This document shows, piece by piece, positions 1,658 through 8,345 of a stretch of DNA of 16,377 nucleotides. Origin of the DNA: Actinomycetota bacterium. GTDB lineage: Bacteria; Actinomycetota; Thermoleophilia; Gaiellales; Gaiellaceae. Under the pieces are notes generated by a model. That model had not been told where the DNA came from. It made no database searches and worked only from the letters and a program-made list of their open reading frames with translations. The position numbers and the translations under genes are program-made. Location of the stretch: contig VAXA01000134.1 in the NCBI GenBank assembly GCA_005883365.1, forward strand, positions 1-16,377, in the 5' to 3' direction. How positions within the stretch are numbered: the stretch's first letter is position 1; the number at the start of each line of letters is the position of its first letter.

Positions 1658-1690
1658 GTAATCCTGCGGCGCCAGGAGTACGCTGCGCGC

Positions 1691-4600
1691 ATGGCCGTCT
1701 GCACGAGTTGCGGCGCCCAATCGGAGGAGGGCAAGCGCTTTTGCGGCGACTGCGGAAGCCCACTCGAGGCGGCCTGCCCCTCGTGCGGCGCACCGACCGC
1801 GCCGGGGAAGCGGTTCTGCGGTGACTGCGGCGCACCGCTCTCCGAGGCTGCGGCCGCGGCCCAGCGACCTACGCCGGTGGCGGAGCGGCGGCTCGTCTCC
1901 GTCCTTTTCGCGGACCTCGTCGGGTTCACGAGCCTCGCAGAGGACCGCGACTCCGAGGAGGTGCGCGAGCTCCTCTCCCGCTACTTCGAGACGTGCCGGC
2001 GAGTGCTCGGCCTCTACGGCGGCACCGTCGAGAAGTTCGTCGGGGATGCGGTGATGGCCGTCTGGGGTGCACCCGTCGCGACCGAAGACGACGCGGAGCG
2101 GTCGGTCAGGGCCGCGCTCGAGCTCGTCAGCGCCGTGCAGGCTCTCGGCGAGGAGATCGGCATCCCCGAGCTGAGCGCTCGGGCCGGCGTGCTCAGCGGC
2201 GAAGCAGCTGTGACGCTTGGAGCCGAGGGCGAAGGCCTTGTCGCGGGCGACCTCGTGAACACGGCCGCGCGGGCGCAGTCACTTGCGTCGCCCGGCGCGG
2301 TACTCGTCGGAGAAGCGACACGACGTGCGACCGAGCCGGCAATCGTCTATGAGCCGGCAGGGACGCACGAGATGAAGGGCAAGACGGGGCTCGTCCCGCT
2401 CTGGCAGGCGCTGCGGGTCGTCTCCGGCGGGCGTGGCGCACTCAAGTCGGAAGGTCTCGAGGCGCCGTTCGTGGGACGCGACCGCGAGCTGCGCCTGCTC
2501 AAGGATCTCTTTCATGCCGGCGCGGAGGAGCGCAAGGCATTCCTCGTCTCGATCACCGGCATCGGCGGAATTGGCAAGTCGCGTCTCGCCTGGGAGTTCA
2601 TCAAGTACATCGACGGCCTGCCGCAGCGCACGCTCTACCACCGGGGTCGCTGTCTCGCGTACGGCGAGGGCGTGACCTACTGGGCACTCGCGGACATGGT
2701 CCGCATGCGCTGCCGCATCGCCGAGGACGAGGATCCGGCGTCCGCGCTCGAGAAACTGCGTAAGACGCTCGCCGAGTTTCTCCTCGACGAGGAAGATCGC
2801 CGCTTCGTCGAGCCGCGCCTCGCCCACCTCCTCGGGCTCGAGCAGCACGAGGCGCGCTCAAAGGAGGAGCTCTTCGGCGCATGGCGGCTCTTCTTCGAGC
2901 GCCTCGCCGACGCCGACCCGGTCTTCCTGGCCTTCGAGGACATGCAGTGGGCCGATCCGAGTCTGCTCGACTTCGTCGAGTACCTTCTCGAGTGGTCGCG
3001 CGACTACCCGATCTATGTGCTGACGCTCGCGCGGCCGGAGCTGCTCGAGCGCCGCCCGACGTGGGGCGCGGGCGGCCGCGCCTTCACCTCCATCTCCCTC
3101 GAGCCACTCGGAGCGGAGCCGACGCACGAGCTTCTTGCGGGGCTCGTGCCCGGGCTGCCGCAGGAGCTGCGGAACGAGATCCTCGGCCGCGCCGAGGGTG
3201 TGCCGCTCTACGCCGTCGAGATGGTGCGGATGCTGCTCGACCGCGGGCTGCTCGTCCCGGAAGGAGCTATCTACCAGCCGGTCGGCGCGATTGGGGCCCT
3301 CGAGGTTCCCGAGACACTTCACGCGCTGATCGCCGCCCGGCTCGACGGCCTCTCCGCGGAAGAGCGGCAGCTGCTCCAGGACGCATCCGTGTTCGGCAAG
3401 ACCTTCACCCGCCAAGCCCTCGAAGCGGTCACCGGGATCGACGAGGCCGAGCTCGTGCCGCTCCTCGCGGGGCTCGTCCGCAAAGAGGTGTTCTCGATCC
3501 AGTCCGACCCGCGTTCTCCCGAACACGGGCAGTACGGTTTCCTCCAGGACCTCGTGCGGCGCGTCGCCTACGAGATGCTCTCGAAGCGCGAGCGAAAGGC
3601 GCGTCACCTTGCCACCGCTGCCTACCTCGAGCAGGCTTTCCCCTCCGAGCATGAGGTCGTGGAGGTGCTCGCATCCCACTACGTGGCTGCGTACGAGGCG
3701 GTGCCGGGCGACGACGACGCCGCGCAGATCCAGCAGCGCGCGCGCGAGCTCTTGTCACGCGCTGGTGAGCGCTCGGCCTCGCTCGCTGCGAGCGAGGAGG
3801 CACGGCACTACTTCGAACAAGCTGCCGCGTTCACCGAGGACAGGCTCGAGCAGGCGCGGCTGCTCGAGCGAGCGGGAGAGATGGCTCTCCGCGCGGGAGA
3901 CAGTGAGCGCGCGCAATCCCGCCTCGAAGAAGCACTCTCGCTTCTGACCGAGCTCGGCGAGGCACATCAGGGGGCGCGTGTCCTGGCTCGCCTCGGCGAA
4001 GTCGACTGGTGGCGAGGCCGTCCCGACGAGGCGCTCGAGCGACTGGAGCGTGCCTGGAAGGAACTCGAGGGCGAGGAGCCCGACGCCGACATAGCCATGC
4101 TTGCCGCGGCGATCGGCCGTGTGCATCTGCTCAGGGGCGAGCTCGGGCCCGCCGCGGCACGGCTCGAGACGGCTCTCGAGCTCGCGGAGTCCCTCTGGCT
4201 TCCCGAGGTCCTCGCGGAGGCGCTGGACAGCAGCGGCGTGGTCATGAATTTCCGCTCGCGCATCCAGCAGGGACAGGCTCTGATCGAGCGGGCGCTCACA
4301 CTTGCGCTCGAGCACGAGCTACCGGCGGCGGCGCTGCGTGCGTATCACAACCTCGGTGACAATCTCAACCGGGTCGACCGCTGCGAAGACGCGATCGCAA
4401 GGTTCGAAGCCGGGATCGCGCTCGCTCGGCGCGTCGGCCACCGACGCTACGAAGATTCGCTCCTCGGCGAGCTCAGCTGGTCGCTCGCGCTCACCGGCCG
4501 CTGGTCGGAGATGTTCGCGGCCCGCGTGCAGGTGCCGGACGAGCGGATCCTCGAGCTGCTTCCGGCCTTCCTGCTTGCGCTGCCGGAGCCGCTCGTCGCG

Positions 4601-5236
4601 CAGGGAAGGCTCGGGGACGCCCGTGACCACCTCACGCTCCACGCCCCACACGAGGACAGCGCCGACTTCCAGCGGCGGGAGGGCTTCCGGGCTGCGCAGG
4701 CGGTCGTGCTGCGGGCCGAGGGGGACGCTGCCGGAACGCTCGGAGCGGCCGAGGAGGTGCTTGCGTCGGCGCTCGAGACGCGCCCTGCAGACCCGGCAGT
4801 GAAGGTCGTCTTTCCGCAGGGTCTCGAGGCTGCGCTGGCGCTCGGCAAGGTCGAGTGGGCGCAGGAGCTGCTCGCCCGCGTCGAAGCCCTCCCTCCGGGG
4901 CGCTTCGCGCCGAGCTTGCGCGCGCACGCAATACGCTTCCGGGCCCGGCTGGCGGCCGAAGAGGGGGATCGCTCGAGTGCTGCGAATGCGTACGCCCGTG
5001 CAGCCGCGATCTTCCGAGAGTTCGCGATGTCGTTCTGGCTGGCGGTCACACAGACCGAGCACAGCGAGTGGCTTGCGGTGCAGGGGAAGATGGACGAGGC
5101 GAATCCGCTTCTCTCGGAGGCGCACGCGACGTTCCGAGGCCTCGACGCCAAGCCCTGGCTCGAGCGGGTCGAGGCGCTCGGGCCTCAGGCGGCCGAGGTG
5201 ATCGTTCCGCAGCCGACCACTGCGTCTTCGTCGTAG
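1691..5236 (+). CDS. Zinc-ribbon / class III cyclase / STAND-type ATPase / TPR signalling protein
   Basis: A 1181-residue multidomain protein. Two zinc ribbons open it (Cys 4, 7, 18, 21 and 29, 32, 43, 46). A class III nucleotide cyclase domain follows at about 65-240. It has metal aspartates at D75 (LFADLVGFTSL) and D119, the substrate-site lysine K115 (EKFVGD), and N190 and R194 (VNTAAR) for transition-state binding. The second substrate-specifying position appears to be Leu183 and not Asp/Thr, so cAMP or cGMP output cannot be predicted. An ATPase module follows, with Walker A at 290-297 (GIGGIGKS) and Walker B at about 411-422 (VFLAFEDMQWAD). From about residue 700 to 1165 it is rich in TPR-like helices. 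The start is placed at MAVCTSCG because the first ribbon begins there; AGGAG lies 12 bases upstream. Its last 18 codons are antisense to the end of mnmA. It is divergent from the sigma operon with a 48-base gap. The ligand is unknown. Confidence 0.9.
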   Translation: MAVCTSCGAQSEEGKRFCGDCGSPLEAACPSCGAPTAPGKRFCGDCGAPLSEAAAAAQRPTPVAERRLVSVLFADLVGFTSLAEDRDSEEVRELLSRYFETCRRVLGLYGGTVEKFVGDAVMAVWGAPVATEDDAERSVRAALELVSAVQALGEEIGIPELSARAGVLSGEAAVTLGAEGEGLVAGDLVNTAARAQSLASPGAVLVGEATRRATEPAIVYEPAGTHEMKGKTGLVPLWQALRVVSGGRGALKSEGLEAPFVGRDRELRLLKDLFHAGAEERKAFLVSITGIGGIGKSRLAWEFIKYIDGLPQRTLYHRGRCLAYGEGVTYWALADMVRMRCRIAEDEDPASALEKLRKTLAEFLLDEEDRRFVEPRLAHLLGLEQHEARSKEELFGAWRLFFERLADADPVFLAFEDMQWADPSLLDFVEYLLEWSRDYPIYVLTLARPELLERRPTWGAGGRAFTSISLEPLGAEPTHELLAGLVPGLPQELRNEILGRAEGVPLYAVEMVRMLLDRGLLVPEGAIYQPVGAIGALEVPETLHALIAARLDGLSAEERQLLQDASVFGKTFTRQALEAVTGIDEAELVPLLAGLVRKEVFSIQSDPRSPEHGQYGFLQDLVRRVAYEMLSKRERKARHLATAAYLEQAFPSEHEVVEVLASHYVAAYEAVPGDDDAAQIQQRARELLSRAGERSASLAASEEARHYFEQAAAFTEDRLEQARLLERAGEMALRAGDSERAQSRLEEALSLLTELGEAHQGARVLARLGEVDWWRGRPDEALERLERAWKELEGEEPDADIAMLAAAIGRVHLLRGELGPAAARLETALELAESLWLPEVLAEALDSSGVVMNFRSRIQQGQALIERALTLALEHELPAAALRAYHNLGDNLNRVDRCEDAIARFEAGIALARRVGHRRYEDSLLGELSWSLALTGRWSEMFAARVQVPDERILELLPAFLLALPEPLVAQGRLGDARDHLTLHAPHEDSADFQRREGFRAAQAVVLRAEGDAAGTLGAAEEVLASALETRPADPAVKVVFPQGLEAALALGKVEWAQELLARVEALPPGRFAPSLRAHAIRFRARLAAEEGDRSSAANAYARAAAIFREFAMSFWLAVTQTEHSEWLAVQGKMDEANPLLSEAHATFRGLDAKPWLERVEALGPQAAEVIVPQPTTASSS

Positions 5237-6438
5237 AGCACTGCCGTCTGGCCCGCCGCGACGCCGTAGGCCGGCTCGTCGAGCTCGAGCCGGAAGCCAT
5301 GCGACGTCGGCTCGACCAGCGCCGGCATCGCAGGCGAGCGGTAGCGGAGCTTCGCCTCGACCCGGCCGACCTCGGCGTACAGGCGGCCGCGCGCCTCCAC
5401 ATGCGTGCGCGCGAGCGACTCCCGTGGACCGACGACAACGGCGTTCGCGGACGGGCGTGTGCCGAGGACGTAGAGCGGCTCCGGAGCGGCGAGGCCGAGA
5501 CCGCGCCGCTGTCCGGGGGTGAAGCGCCAGAAGCCGTCGTGGCGGCCGAGCTCGCGGCCGTCTTCTCCGACGATCGCGCCCTCCTGCGGTTCGAGCCCAT
5601 GCCGGCCGAGAAACGCGCGGTAGTCGTCGCCGGCGAGGAAGCACGCCTCCTGGCTCTCGGGCCGGCGTGCAGCAGCGAGCCCTGCATGCTCGGCCTCCGC
5701 CCGTGTTACCTCCTTGTCCTGCTCGCCGAGCGGGAAGGAGACTCGCGCCAGGTGGCGCGGCTCGAGCGCCGCGAGCATGTAGCTCTGGTCCTTCGTCGCG
5801 TCGACTCCGCGCGCGAGGAGGAGACGGCCGTCTCGCTCGACGATGCGCGCGTAGTGGCCGGTCGCCAGCCGCTCGGCGCCGGCACGCCGCGCGAACGCGA
5901 GCAGCTCGGCGAAGCGGAAGCCGCCGTTGCAGCGGGTACACGGGTTCGGCGTCTCGCCGCGGGCGTAGCCGCGGACGAAGGGCGCGACAACCGCGCGCCG
6001 GAACTCCTCGCGCAGGTCGAGCGTCACGTGCGGCACGCCGAGCCGGTGACACGTCTCGCGCGCGGCGATCACGCTCTCGGGCGAGCAGCAGGCGCGCTCC
6101 GAATCCGGTCCGTCCGGATCGAGCCAGAGGCGCAACGTCACGCCGACGGCGTTCGGCAGCGAGCGGAGGAGGGCGACCGCGCTGTCCACCCCGCCGCTCA
6201 TGGCCACGGCCCCGCGTCCCGGCTCAGGCGCAGCGCGGAAGACCGGCCCGATCGCGTTCGCGAGCGCGTCCACCACGAGCGTCTCGCCGCCGACCGACGA
6301 CGCCTCGAGGAGCGTCAAGCCTGCGACGTCGCGCTCGAGCCCGGGCCCGTCCGCCTCGACGATCCGGTCGCCGTCGACGAGCAGGCGCACGGCTGCCCAC
6401 TCGCCGCCGCGGCTCGAGTCTCCGAACACTTCGCGCAT
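5185..6438 (-). CDS. mnmA: tRNA-specific 2-thiouridylase MnmA with N-terminal IscU-like extension
   Basis: This enzyme thiolates U34 of tRNAs for Lys, Glu and Gln in the cytoplasm. The PP-loop SGGVDS sits at 81-86. The nucleophilic Cys is C170 in TPNPCTRCN, and the partner Cys is C266 in PESQEACF. GHYAR (194-198), KDQSYML (216-222) and FTPGQRRGLG (307-316) are family blocks. The protein has 417 residues, against roughly 350-380 for ordinary MnmA. The extra ~75 N-terminal residues resemble an IscU/NifU scaffold (VRLLVDGDRIVEADGPG, then EASSVGGETL) but contain no cysteine. The ATG at 6438 is chosen because the extension starts sensibly there and a GGTGAGG lies just upstream; that motif is inside a perfect hairpin at 6439-6459. 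The gene follows aspS after the putative 6S RNA, and its 3' end overlaps the convergent cyclase gene by 52 bases. Confidence 0.95.
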   Translation of the reverse strand: MREVFGDSSRGGEWAAVRLLVDGDRIVEADGPGLERDVAGLTLLEASSVGGETLVVDALANAIGPVFRAAPEPGRGAVAMSGGVDSAVALLRSLPNAVGVTLRLWLDPDGPDSERACCSPESVIAARETCHRLGVPHVTLDLREEFRRAVVAPFVRGYARGETPNPCTRCNGGFRFAELLAFARRAGAERLATGHYARIVERDGRLLLARGVDATKDQSYMLAALEPRHLARVSFPLGEQDKEVTRAEAEHAGLAAARRPESQEACFLAGDDYRAFLGRHGLEPQEGAIVGEDGRELGRHDGFWRFTPGQRRGLGLAAPEPLYVLGTRPSANAVVVGPRESLARTHVEARGRLYAEVGRVEAKLRYRSPAMPALVEPTSHGFRLELDEPAYGVAAGQTAVLYDEDAVVGCGTITSAA

Positions 6439-6459
6439 GCCCTCACCGTAGATGAGGGC
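6439..6459 (-). promoter_or_regulatory. Hairpin covering the mnmA ribosome binding site
   Basis: A perfect 7-base inverted repeat (GCCCTCA / TGAGGGC) with a 7-base loop abuts the mnmA start codon. The GGTGAGG that would serve as Shine-Dalgarno sequence lies in its loop edge and 3' arm, so folding would hide it. It also sits at the 3' end of the putative 6S RNA and could help define that end, although no T-run follows. The inverted repeat is directly visible; its function is inferred. Confidence 0.4.
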
Positions 6460-6610
6460 CCGGCCCCGAGCTCCCGAACCGAACGATGTGATCCTGGTCT
6501 CCCAGGTGGGTGCCGTGCCCGCCTTCGGCAATGCCTCGGTCGGGACGCCGGCTCCCTTTCACGTAGCGTTGGATCTACATGTGCGCCCGATTCGGCGCGC
6601 GGGGCCGAGC
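6459..6610 (-). ncRNA. ssrS: Putative 6S RNA (long imperfect rod between aspS and mnmA)
   Basis: The gap after aspS folds end to end on the minus strand. A closing stem pairs 6609-6601 with 6467-6459 (CTCGGCCCC with GGGGCCGGG). Inner helices pair CCGAA (6595-6591) with TTCGG (6483-6479) and ATGT-a-GATCC (6580-6571) with GGATC-ACAT (6494-6486). After an unpaired 5' stretch (6570-6557), an apical rod pairs GGG-GCCG-CCCG-CC with GG-CGGG-CGGC-CCC around a GGC/GCC hairpin (6556-6508). A small hairpin CCTGG-GAGA-CCAGG (6506-6493) sits on the 3' side of the central bubble and competes with the GATCC helix. This is the layout of 6S RNA, which binds housekeeping RNA polymerase and mimics an open promoter. 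A 6S gene next to aspS is also known in Firmicutes. About 150 nt is slightly short for the family. A TAGAGT hexamer lies 7 bases before the 5' stem. Confidence 0.6.
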
Positions 6611-6616
6611 ACGGAG

Positions 6617-6622
6617 ACTCTA
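6617..6622 (-). promoter_or_regulatory. Candidate -10 element (TAGAGT) for the putative 6S RNA
   Basis: TAGAGT on the minus strand, within GCTAGAGTC, is 7 bases upstream of the first paired base of the putative 6S RNA. That is the right distance for a transcription start at about 6610. It lies just past the aspS stop codon and resembles the elements before hutH and the MBL gene. No clear -35 box is visible. Confidence 0.35.
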
Positions 6623-6629
6623 GCGCCCG

Positions 6630-8345
6630 CTAGTCGGCCTGTGGCTGAAGCAACCCGATGCCGAGCTCGCGCAGCGCAGTGTCGGGATACGGCGTCGGTG
6701 CCCCGGTGAGCGGATCCGACCCGCTTGCGATCTTCGGGAACGCGGTCACCTGCCGGATGTCGGGCTCCCGCGCAAGCAAGGCGATGAAGCGGTCGATGCC
6801 CATGGCGAAGCCGCCATGTGGCGGCGGGCCCATCTGGAGCGCATCGAGGAGGAAGCCGAACTTGTCCCGCTGCTCCTCCTCACCCATCCCCATCACGCGG
6901 AAGACGGCCTGCTGAACCTCTGCCTGGTGGATCCGGATCGAGCCGGAGCCGAGCTCCCAGCCGTTCCAGATCAGGTCGTAGTGCTGGCCGCGCACGTGCG
7001 CGGAGTCGGACTCGATCCTCTGCTCCTCGCCGCCGATCGGAGCCGTGAACGGGTGATGCATGAACGTCCAACCGCCAAACTCCTCGCTGATCTCGAAGAG
7101 CGGGAAGTCGTGGATCCAATGGAAGACATCGAGGCCGGCGTCGATCAGGTCGAGCTCCCGCGCAAGGTGCAAGCGGAGCAGCCCGAGCACACGGCTTACC
7201 ACGGCTTCCTCGTCCGCGACGAACAGCGCCGTTGCCTCTTCCGGGACACCGAACGCCTTCAGCTCGCGCTCCGAGAGGAACTTGGAGACCTGCCTGAGGT
7301 TCGCGAGCCCCTTGGCACCCCACTCCTTCGCGAGCTCCTCCAGCCGCGCTTGCTCCGCACGAGAGTACGTACGCGGGACGACGACGTAGCGCACGCACGG
7401 CGCGTTCTTGAAGACTCCGAACTCCGAGTCCCGTGTCACGTCCGTCGCGTCCTGGATCTCCATGCCAAAGCGAAGGTCAGGCTTGTCTGAGCCGTAACGA
7501 AGCATGGCGTCGGCATACGAGAGGTGCGGGAACGGCCGCTGCGGCGGCTCGACGCCTGCAGCCTCGAACGAGGCGGCGACACACGCCTCCATCACGTTGA
7601 GCACATCCTCGCGCTCGACGAACGCCATCTCGAAGTCAAGTTGGCGAAACTCGAACTGACGGTCGGCGCGGAGATCTTCGTCCCGCCAGCAGGTCGCGAT
7701 CTGGTAGTAGCGGTCGATCCCGCCCACCATGCAGAGCTGCTTGAACAGCTGGGGCGACTGGGCGAGGGCGAAAAAGCGCCCCGGCTGGAGTCGAACGGGC
7801 ACGAGGAAGTCGCGCGCGCCCTCGGGCGTGCCGCGGGTCATGCTCGGCGTCCAGACATCGATGAAGTCCCGCTCGTCCATGACATGGCGGATCGCCGCGA
7901 TCGCGGTGTGGTTGAGCCGGAGGTTGCGCTGCATCCGCTCTGTACGCATGTCGAGCCAGCGGTAGCGCAGGCGAAGCGTCTCGTCGACGTTCTCCTCGTC
8001 GAGCTGGAACGGGAGCGGCGTTGAGCGGGAGACGATCCGCAGCTCGTCGACCTGCACCTCGATCTGGCCGGACGGCAGGTTCGGGTTGACGAGTTCCGGC
8101 GCACGCGCGGTGACTTCGCCCACAGCCTGGAGCACGAACTCGTTGCGGATCTCGTGCGCGGTCTCGGCGGCGACGGGCGAGCGCTCCGGGTTGACGACCA
8201 GCTGGACCTTGCCGGTGTGGTCGCGAAGGTCGACGAAGACGAGCCCGCCGTGGTCGCGGCGTGTGTCGGCCCAGCCGGCGACCGTGACGCGGCGGCCGGC
8301 GTCGTCGGGCCGCAGCTCGCCGCACATCGCGTCGCGCCAGCTCAT
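6630..8345 (-). CDS. aspS: Aspartyl-tRNA synthetase (bacterial type), possibly non-discriminating
   Basis: This class II enzyme charges tRNA-Asp with aspartate. It has 571 residues, near the bacterial norm of about 590. The N-terminal OB-fold anticodon domain covers about 1-105 (WADTRRDHGGLVFVDLRD). The catalytic core starts with RYRWLDMR (127-134). Motif 2 is at about 219-240 (CWRDEDLRADRQFEFRQLDFEM), and motif 3 at 509-525 (PHGGFAMGIDRFIALLA) carries Arg519. The bacterial GAD insertion lies roughly at 285-405. His32 in RRDHGG is the residue found in several non-discriminating AspRS enzymes, which also make Asp-tRNA-Asn for amidation by GatCAB; discriminating enzymes such as that of E. coli usually have Leu there. 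Motif 2 reads QFEFRQLD where QPEFTQLD is usual. The ATG overlaps the hisS stop by four bases (ATGA), so the two synthetases are coupled. Confidence 0.97.
   Translation of the reverse strand: MSWRDAMCGELRPDDAGRRVTVAGWADTRRDHGGLVFVDLRDHTGKVQLVVNPERSPVAAETAHEIRNEFVLQAVGEVTARAPELVNPNLPSGQIEVQVDELRIVSRSTPLPFQLDEENVDETLRLRYRWLDMRTERMQRNLRLNHTAIAAIRHVMDERDFIDVWTPSMTRGTPEGARDFLVPVRLQPGRFFALAQSPQLFKQLCMVGGIDRYYQIATCWRDEDLRADRQFEFRQLDFEMAFVEREDVLNVMEACVAASFEAAGVEPPQRPFPHLSYADAMLRYGSDKPDLRFGMEIQDATDVTRDSEFGVFKNAPCVRYVVVPRTYSRAEQARLEELAKEWGAKGLANLRQVSKFLSERELKAFGVPEEATALFVADEEAVVSRVLGLLRLHLARELDLIDAGLDVFHWIHDFPLFEISEEFGGWTFMHHPFTAPIGGEEQRIESDSAHVRGQHYDLIWNGWELGSGSIRIHQAEVQQAVFRVMGMGEEEQRDKFGFLLDALQMGPPPHGGFAMGIDRFIALLAREPDIRQVTAFPKIASGSDPLTGAPTPYPDTALRELGIGLLQPQAD

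Follow-up and report, generated by a model that had tools for sequence, protein, structure and literature searches.

A very probable 6S RNA (ssrS) gene between aspS and mnmA in a Thermoleophilia bacterium

6S RNA is usually encoded once per genome, under a promoter of its own, and its transcript is abundant and rises in stationary phase. As summarised in PMC8876501, it binds the RNA polymerase holoenzyme as a mimic of an open promoter; the polymerase copies a pRNA from it, and helix P2 is unwound. Release is helped by a longer 3′ bubble hairpin in E. coli and by a bubble-collapse helix in B. subtilis and Aquifex (same source). The great majority of known 6S RNAs (97%) are 150-210 nt long, according to PMC4191392.

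Papers of 2022 and 2024 present 6S RNA as missing or disputed in Actinobacteria. PMC9130861 describes 6S RNAs as widespread except in this group and regards those proposed in Streptomyces as unproven, and PMC11077062 leaves Actinobacteria without 6S RNA save one Streptomyces candidate. According to the same papers, Rfam yields candidates for Ms1, another polymerase-binding RNA, near mycobacteria only (PMC9130861), and each species is proposed to have one type of abundant polymerase-bound RNA (PMC11077062). The earlier claim of an actinobacterial 6S RNA (coelicolor) falls in the class of Blastococcus and is disputed. The main text of PMC9130861 mentions neither Thermoleophilia nor Rubrobacter or Gaiella. 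In our literature search the term "6S RNA" was not found together with "Thermoleophilia", and the papers listed for names of outer classes did not contain it either, which excludes little; an earlier mention is possible in Barrick 2005, in Wehner 2014, among automatic Rfam entries or in the additional file with new 6S RNAs to which PMC2864571 points.

We analysed a stretch of 16,377 nucleotides (hereafter the window). A preliminary description of it had noted a rod-forming stretch in a gap of 190 bases between aspS and mnmA and read it as a 6S RNA. All the pieces it named are present on the minus strand (Table 1). Between the stop codon of aspS at 6630 and position 6438, where the translation of mnmA has its first in-frame ATG, the gap measures 191 bases. 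Closing stem and -10 box together suggest a 5′ end of the proposed gene near 6610 and a 3′ end near 6458; measured between the outer ends of the stem the RNA would have about 153 nt, inside the range of known 6S RNAs.

Table 1. Parts of the proposed 6S RNA gene and its neighbours (positions in the window)
Feature	Position	Strand	Remarks
mnmA, tRNA 2-thiouridine synthase	5185..6438	minus	NF001138, 334 bits; downstream neighbour of the 6S gene
Very probable 6S RNA gene, ~153 nt	6458..6610	minus	RF00013, held-out model R1, fold z
Closing stem, 3′ strand	6458..6468	minus	GGGGCCGGG at 6467-6459
P2 core, 3′ strand GGAUC	6490..6494	minus	GG common to P2 and the 3′ bubble hairpin
3′ central-bubble hairpin CCUGG-GAGA-CCAGG	6493..6506	minus	98.2% of cells paired
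Apical arm	6508..6556	minus	base GGGAGCC (6556-6550) with GGCACCC (6514-6508)
Distal 5′ bubble GUGA	6559..6562	minus	could pair with UCAC 6491-6488 after P2 opens (constrained fold)
5′ central-bubble hairpin CAUGUAG/CUACGUG	6560..6581	minus	encloses the putative pRNA start
Putative pRNA start, template C	6568	minus	by analogy with the B. subtilis 6S-1 pRNA 5′-GUUCGGUCAAAACU (PMC12005410)
P2 core, 5′ strand GAUCC; putative pRNA template	6571..6575	minus	pairs with 6490-6494 in 46/46 sequences
Closing stem, 5′ strand	6600..6610	minus	pairs with 6458-6468; CTCGGCCCC at 6609-6601
-10 element TAGAGT	6617..6622	minus	seven bases before CTCGG of the closing stem
aspS, aspartate-tRNA ligase	6630..8345	minus	NF001750, 701 bits; upstream neighbour of the 6S gene

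Elsewhere in the window we observed a sigma factor gene of the SigB/SigF/SigG type (46-804, minus; TIGR02980, 286.7 bits) and a small gene from 801 upwards, overlapping and upstream of it, with no Pfam match and an anti-sigma look by eye. A large protein encoded at 1670-5236 on the plus strand combines zinc ribbon, adenylate/guanylate cyclase, AAA and TPR domains. Ahead of the catalytic domain of MnmA lie about 76 residues (6438-6211, minus) that match neither Pfam nor NCBIfam; this N-terminal extension looks conserved in family f1, where most relatives' matches start near the same residue.

At gathering thresholds, Rfam found no match in the whole window. A permissive search of the minus strand with the 6S model RF00013, proposed as a check in the preliminary description, gave a match at 6575-6490 with 25.3 bits and an E-value of 0.002, below the cut-off of 46.4 bits. 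It was the sole match among 4227 Rfam families in 6380-6700 at E<=10, and RF00013 matched the source genome only once at the same threshold. A clear 6S RNA elsewhere in the genome, considered beforehand as evidence against this reading, was not found in the assembly, which is 78% complete (2.15 Mb in 310 pieces). When the source genome and 60 relatives were searched, RF00013 appeared at E<=1 in 40 of the 61 and scored over the cut-off in nine: two of the same genus (G001, G012), five of the same family and two of the same order.

Among named genomes, the aspS loci of seven relatives (L032-L038) did not reach the RF00013 cut-off, and four Thermoleophilia genomes gave matches below it, with E-values from 0.0076 to 7.9e-8. 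The closest aspS among the named relatives belongs to L032 and L033, labelled Thermoleophilia bacterium (89 and 88% identical); their 6S matches equal those of two genomes of the window's genus, G009 and G011, in contig place and E-value.

A covariance model tailored to the clade (R1) was built from 22 of 30 fetched relatives, with the window left out. It matched the window over its full length at 6616-6451 with 107.8 bits (E 9e-21) and, at E<=0.01, found this place only in the source genome. The second model, R2, was built from 26 sequences of several classes that include the window, so its match there is no test. A clade-specific model of the R1 kind detects GC-rich 6S RNAs below the Rfam cut-off as well.

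For the 155-nt segment 6611-6457 the fold energy is -91.2 kcal/mol, compared with a mean of -66.5 (sd 4.4) for 200 dinucleotide shuffles, none of which folded equally well (z -5.63). Both strands of the closing stem proposed earlier were located, and the stem could be extended to 11 continuous pairs, 6610-6600 with 6468-6458, that is, one pair beyond CTCGGCCCC/GGGGCCGGG at each end. In the minimum-energy fold the P2 core is open (mean pair probability 0.015) and two bubble hairpins are present instead. The 3′ hairpin is already formed in the predicted free RNA (mean pair probability 0.99), where forcing P2 would cost 3.4 kcal/mol. The preliminary description had foreseen competition between this CCTGG-GAGA-CCAGG hairpin and an inner helix; that helix is GAUCC/GGAUC, which shares its GG with the hairpin. 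The potential for refolding is present as predicted pairing and complementarity.

The 5′ bubble hairpin was considered as a feature of the whole family and rejected, as a hairpin of at least six pairs with a loop of 8-9 nt occurs in only 11 of 46 sequences. Within its clade it may serve to lock pRNA initiation.

Conservation of the structure was studied in alignment A2, in which the window stands beside 45 relatives that belong to families f1 and f4 or are named (46 distinct sequences in all). The closing stem, P2 core and apical base together had 94.0% of their cells paired, a count that leans towards structure because most rows of A2 are best-scoring matches, and 11 of the 23 pairs had changed on both sides. 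None of 500 shuffles of A2 reached any of five measures, and structures slid by 1-3 columns paired at 21-58%. The compensatory changes which the preliminary description had suggested looking for in relatives were found and favour its reading. They occur in seven of 12 column pairs of the closing helix and two of five pairs of the P2 core. In the apical base 99.3% of cells are paired; four of its six pairs are invariant and two have changed on both sides. The alignment also contains invariant blocks across all 46 sequences. Individual pairs of the closing stem vary: columns 13/184 are paired in 11 sequences, the window among them, and unpaired in 35, and columns 20/175 are unpaired in eight, the window included.

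When the 3′ hairpin replaced P2 and pair 13-184 was dropped, 96.9% of cells were paired and 10 of 23 pairs had changed on both sides, again with 0/500 shuffles. Column 149 can belong to either structure. Five sequences (L003, L031-L033 and the window) carry A there, all others U. The P2 pair that it forms with column 48 is present in 46/46 sequences (AU 37, UA 5, GU 4), and the hairpin pair 132-149 is broken in exactly those five. P2 is thus supported by changes of its own, because column 149 follows column 48 rather than hairpin column 132; the five variants may go back to one or two events, as cells do not equal events. The 3′ hairpin is likewise supported, because its top pair changes from GC to CG in four sequences.

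The preliminary description had pointed to a -10-like TAGAGT seven bases ahead of the 5′ stem, and it is indeed found at 6622-6617. In all 46 aligned loci the end of a TANNNT motif lies 4-11 nt ahead of the start modelled for the stem (0-16 allowed), compared with 14 of 1012 background windows taken from the same upstream DNA with an equal number of start positions. A G stands two bases ahead of the motif in 42 of the loci and a C one base ahead in 37. The upstream DNA of the 46 loci showed no conserved -35 signal, and no terminator-like site was found at the 6S locus.

The gene order around the element was also compared. Of the 45 relatives, 40 have an mnmA nearby: in 36 it follows downstream in the same orientation, and in four it is read from the opposite strand. 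In these four loci (L025, L155, L158 and L160) the 6S gene is antiparallel to the adjoining mnmA, which points to a local inversion or relocation.

In the window's class, R1 matched 151 of 249 genomes (102 of 176 better assemblies), once per genome among the matches listed bar one genome with two matches and 8% contamination. The remaining 98 had no match at E<=0.01; they may reflect incomplete assemblies, lost weak matches or, in family f9, real absence. In f9, R2 matched at E<=1 in two of 61 genomes only, at 17 bits, and in none of 46 good assemblies; the family looks like a second loss of 6S RNA besides that in the class of Blastococcus.

Across Actinomycetota, RF00013 was found at E<=0.01 in 131 of 396 genomes, 90 of them over the cut-off and 106 outside the window's class; R2 was run with the same kind of filters on 198 genomes of the phylum and matched 64. 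In the class of Blastococcus aggregatus (G632), named Actinomycetes, both RF00013 and R2 found 0 of 296, in searches whose stricter filters lose weak matches and leave a diverged 6S RNA in that class possible. Beside aspS in 67 loci, nearly all of Geodermatophilaceae, R1 found nothing real (one match of 17.2 bits, E 0.29), and in five named genomes of this family RF00013 at E<=10 gave noise in two (E 2.3 and 6.6) and nothing in three.

The linkage to aspS extends beyond the class. Among the best 20 RF00013 loci of the phylum, all outside the window's class, 18 have a co-oriented aspS match whose end lies 25-122 nt upstream, and the other two (L118, L128) show no aspS match in the fetched flanks. 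None of the 20 has an mnmA match in these flanks. Linkage to aspS is thus frequent among the best-scoring loci of other classes of Actinomycetota. The preliminary description had called the aspS neighbourhood shared with Firmicutes 6S genes, which was not confirmed in three Firmicutes aspS loci (L088, L090, L110): RF00013 at gathering thresholds, R1 and R2 all found no match there.

Could such a rod arise without any function? GC-rich spacers fold easily and the window's Rfam score is below the cut-off. A chance rod is nevertheless extremely unlikely in view of the fold z-score, the E-value of the held-out model R1, covariation that no shuffle equals and the blocks that stay invariant in 46 sequences. 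A functional element could also belong to a message, as a leader or attenuator in the mnmA mRNA or a 3′ element of aspS, and yield no free RNA. Its position in the gap, with both neighbours in the same orientation as the element, would suit such a role, as would the 36 of 40 loci in which mnmA follows in the same direction. The four inverted loci speak against it, as do the 20 loci of other classes, which have no mnmA match in their flanks and aspS ahead in 18, and so does a conserved -10 box of its own in 46/46 loci together with the lack of a terminator-like site. Since mnmA lies on the opposite strand in four loci, the RNA is not tied to the mnmA message; the idea of an mnmA leader was dropped on account of these loci and the promoter, and we consider an element within either mRNA highly improbable.

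The other candidate is Ms1, which binds the sigma-free core polymerase, so that the RNA of the window would merely resemble 6S RNA. Ms1 is a polymerase-binding RNA known in Actinobacteria and has a 6S-like central bubble (PMC9130861). It is about 300 nt long, with extra end hairpins and a HAD hydrolase neighbour, whereas the RNA studied here has about 153 nt, lies between aspS and mnmA and matches RF00013. In addition, RF00013 and R2 found nothing in 296 genomes of the class of Blastococcus, Actinomycetes, to which the Ms1 orders listed in Table 4 of PMC9130861 belong. An Ms1 homologue is therefore very unlikely. The reading as 6S RNA is supported by the covariance models, the compensatory changes and the -10 box, and the minus-strand gap between aspS and mnmA is very probably the ssrS gene of this Thermoleophilia bacterium; the gene would have a promoter of its own and encode an open-promoter mimic.

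We infer expression, holoenzyme binding, pRNA synthesis and release of the 6S RNA. Two helical arms around a central bubble would imitate an open promoter and bind polymerase with the primary sigma factor, mostly as growth slows, and promoters would thereby be spared of polymerase. Once nucleotides are back, the polymerase would copy a short pRNA, 5′-GUUGGAUCUACAUG, from near 6568, a start proposed by analogy; with holoenzyme on a 6S RNA template, products beginning GUUGGAUC would be expected. The growing pRNA would invade and open the P2 core GAUCC/GGAUC. The 3′ strand of the core, no longer held in P2, could then stay in the CCUGG/CCAGG hairpin and also pair with the distal 5′ bubble (GUGA/UCAC), and the collapse of the bubble would release the polymerase, as in B. 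subtilis 6S-1.

The last steps were examined by folding and by comparison across the family. With 14 template bases from 6568 blocked, the predicted fold gained a GUGA/UCAC helix that joins the distal 5′ bubble to the 3′ side of P2. In segments taken by alignment columns, the best bubble-collapse helix averaged 4.72 with true and 4.02 with swapped partners in the 46 sequences (0 of 5000 permutations). The corresponding values were 4.75 and 3.96 for 36 representatives (0/5000), 4.75 and 4.04 for 24 (3/5000), and 4.56 and 3.80 for 16 (2/5000). Fewer than four pairs were found in eight of the 46. The best stretch listed for the window, AACG/CGTT, has four pairs and equals GUGA/UCAC in length, so the window alone is no proof of the latter helix. 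Release of the B. subtilis type is favoured because helices with true partners are longer than those with swapped partners across the family. The predicted anatomy fits a pRNA-release cycle of this type.

The RNA of the window adds a new member to a family already known, and what may be new is its place in the phylum. We lean towards a history in which 6S RNA was present just after aspS in the ancestor of Actinomycetota, was kept in Thermoleophilia and other outer classes, and was lost towards the class of Blastococcus, where Ms1 or CoRP took over, and independently in f9. If this is true, the statement that Actinobacteria have no 6S RNA holds for one class and not for the phylum, and Ms1 is a replacement rather than the phylum's original. 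At the level of sequence, matches in Thermoleophilia and other classes, set beside 0/296 in the class of Blastococcus, would narrow the gap to that one class, and the replacement of 6S RNA by Ms1 would become testable in organisms from both sides of the loss.

Among the polymerase-associated RNAs of the same phylum, CoRP RNA of Corynebacterium is about 500 nt long, has close homologues in Corynebacterium only and binds both core and holoenzyme (as described in PMC11077062). Ms1 (MTS2823, scr3559) also comes from this phylum and has a 6S-like bubble; compared by its description in PMC9130861, it differs from the RNA of the window in its length of about 300 nt, its extra 5′ and 3′ hairpins, its HAD hydrolase neighbour and its binding to sigma-free core.

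The likeness to 6S RNA itself (SsrS, RF00013) is closer: the RNA of the window is a rod, its central bubble flanked by two arms, and it shares the GAxCC/GGxxC P2 core and the GGGAGCC/GGCACCC apical base with the Rfam consensus. Unlike the 187-position Rfam model, it has about 153 nt, a shorter apical arm and a GC-rich sequence, and it occurs in a phylum reported to have no 6S RNA. In mechanism the nearest relative would be B. subtilis 6S-1, from which the window's clade departs by adding a predicted 5′ bubble hairpin around the putative pRNA start. The two have in common a predicted 3′ bubble hairpin in the free RNA and a possible bubble-collapse helix, and the pRNA of the window would begin with 5′-GUU, like that of B. 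subtilis (PMC8876501, PMC12005410).
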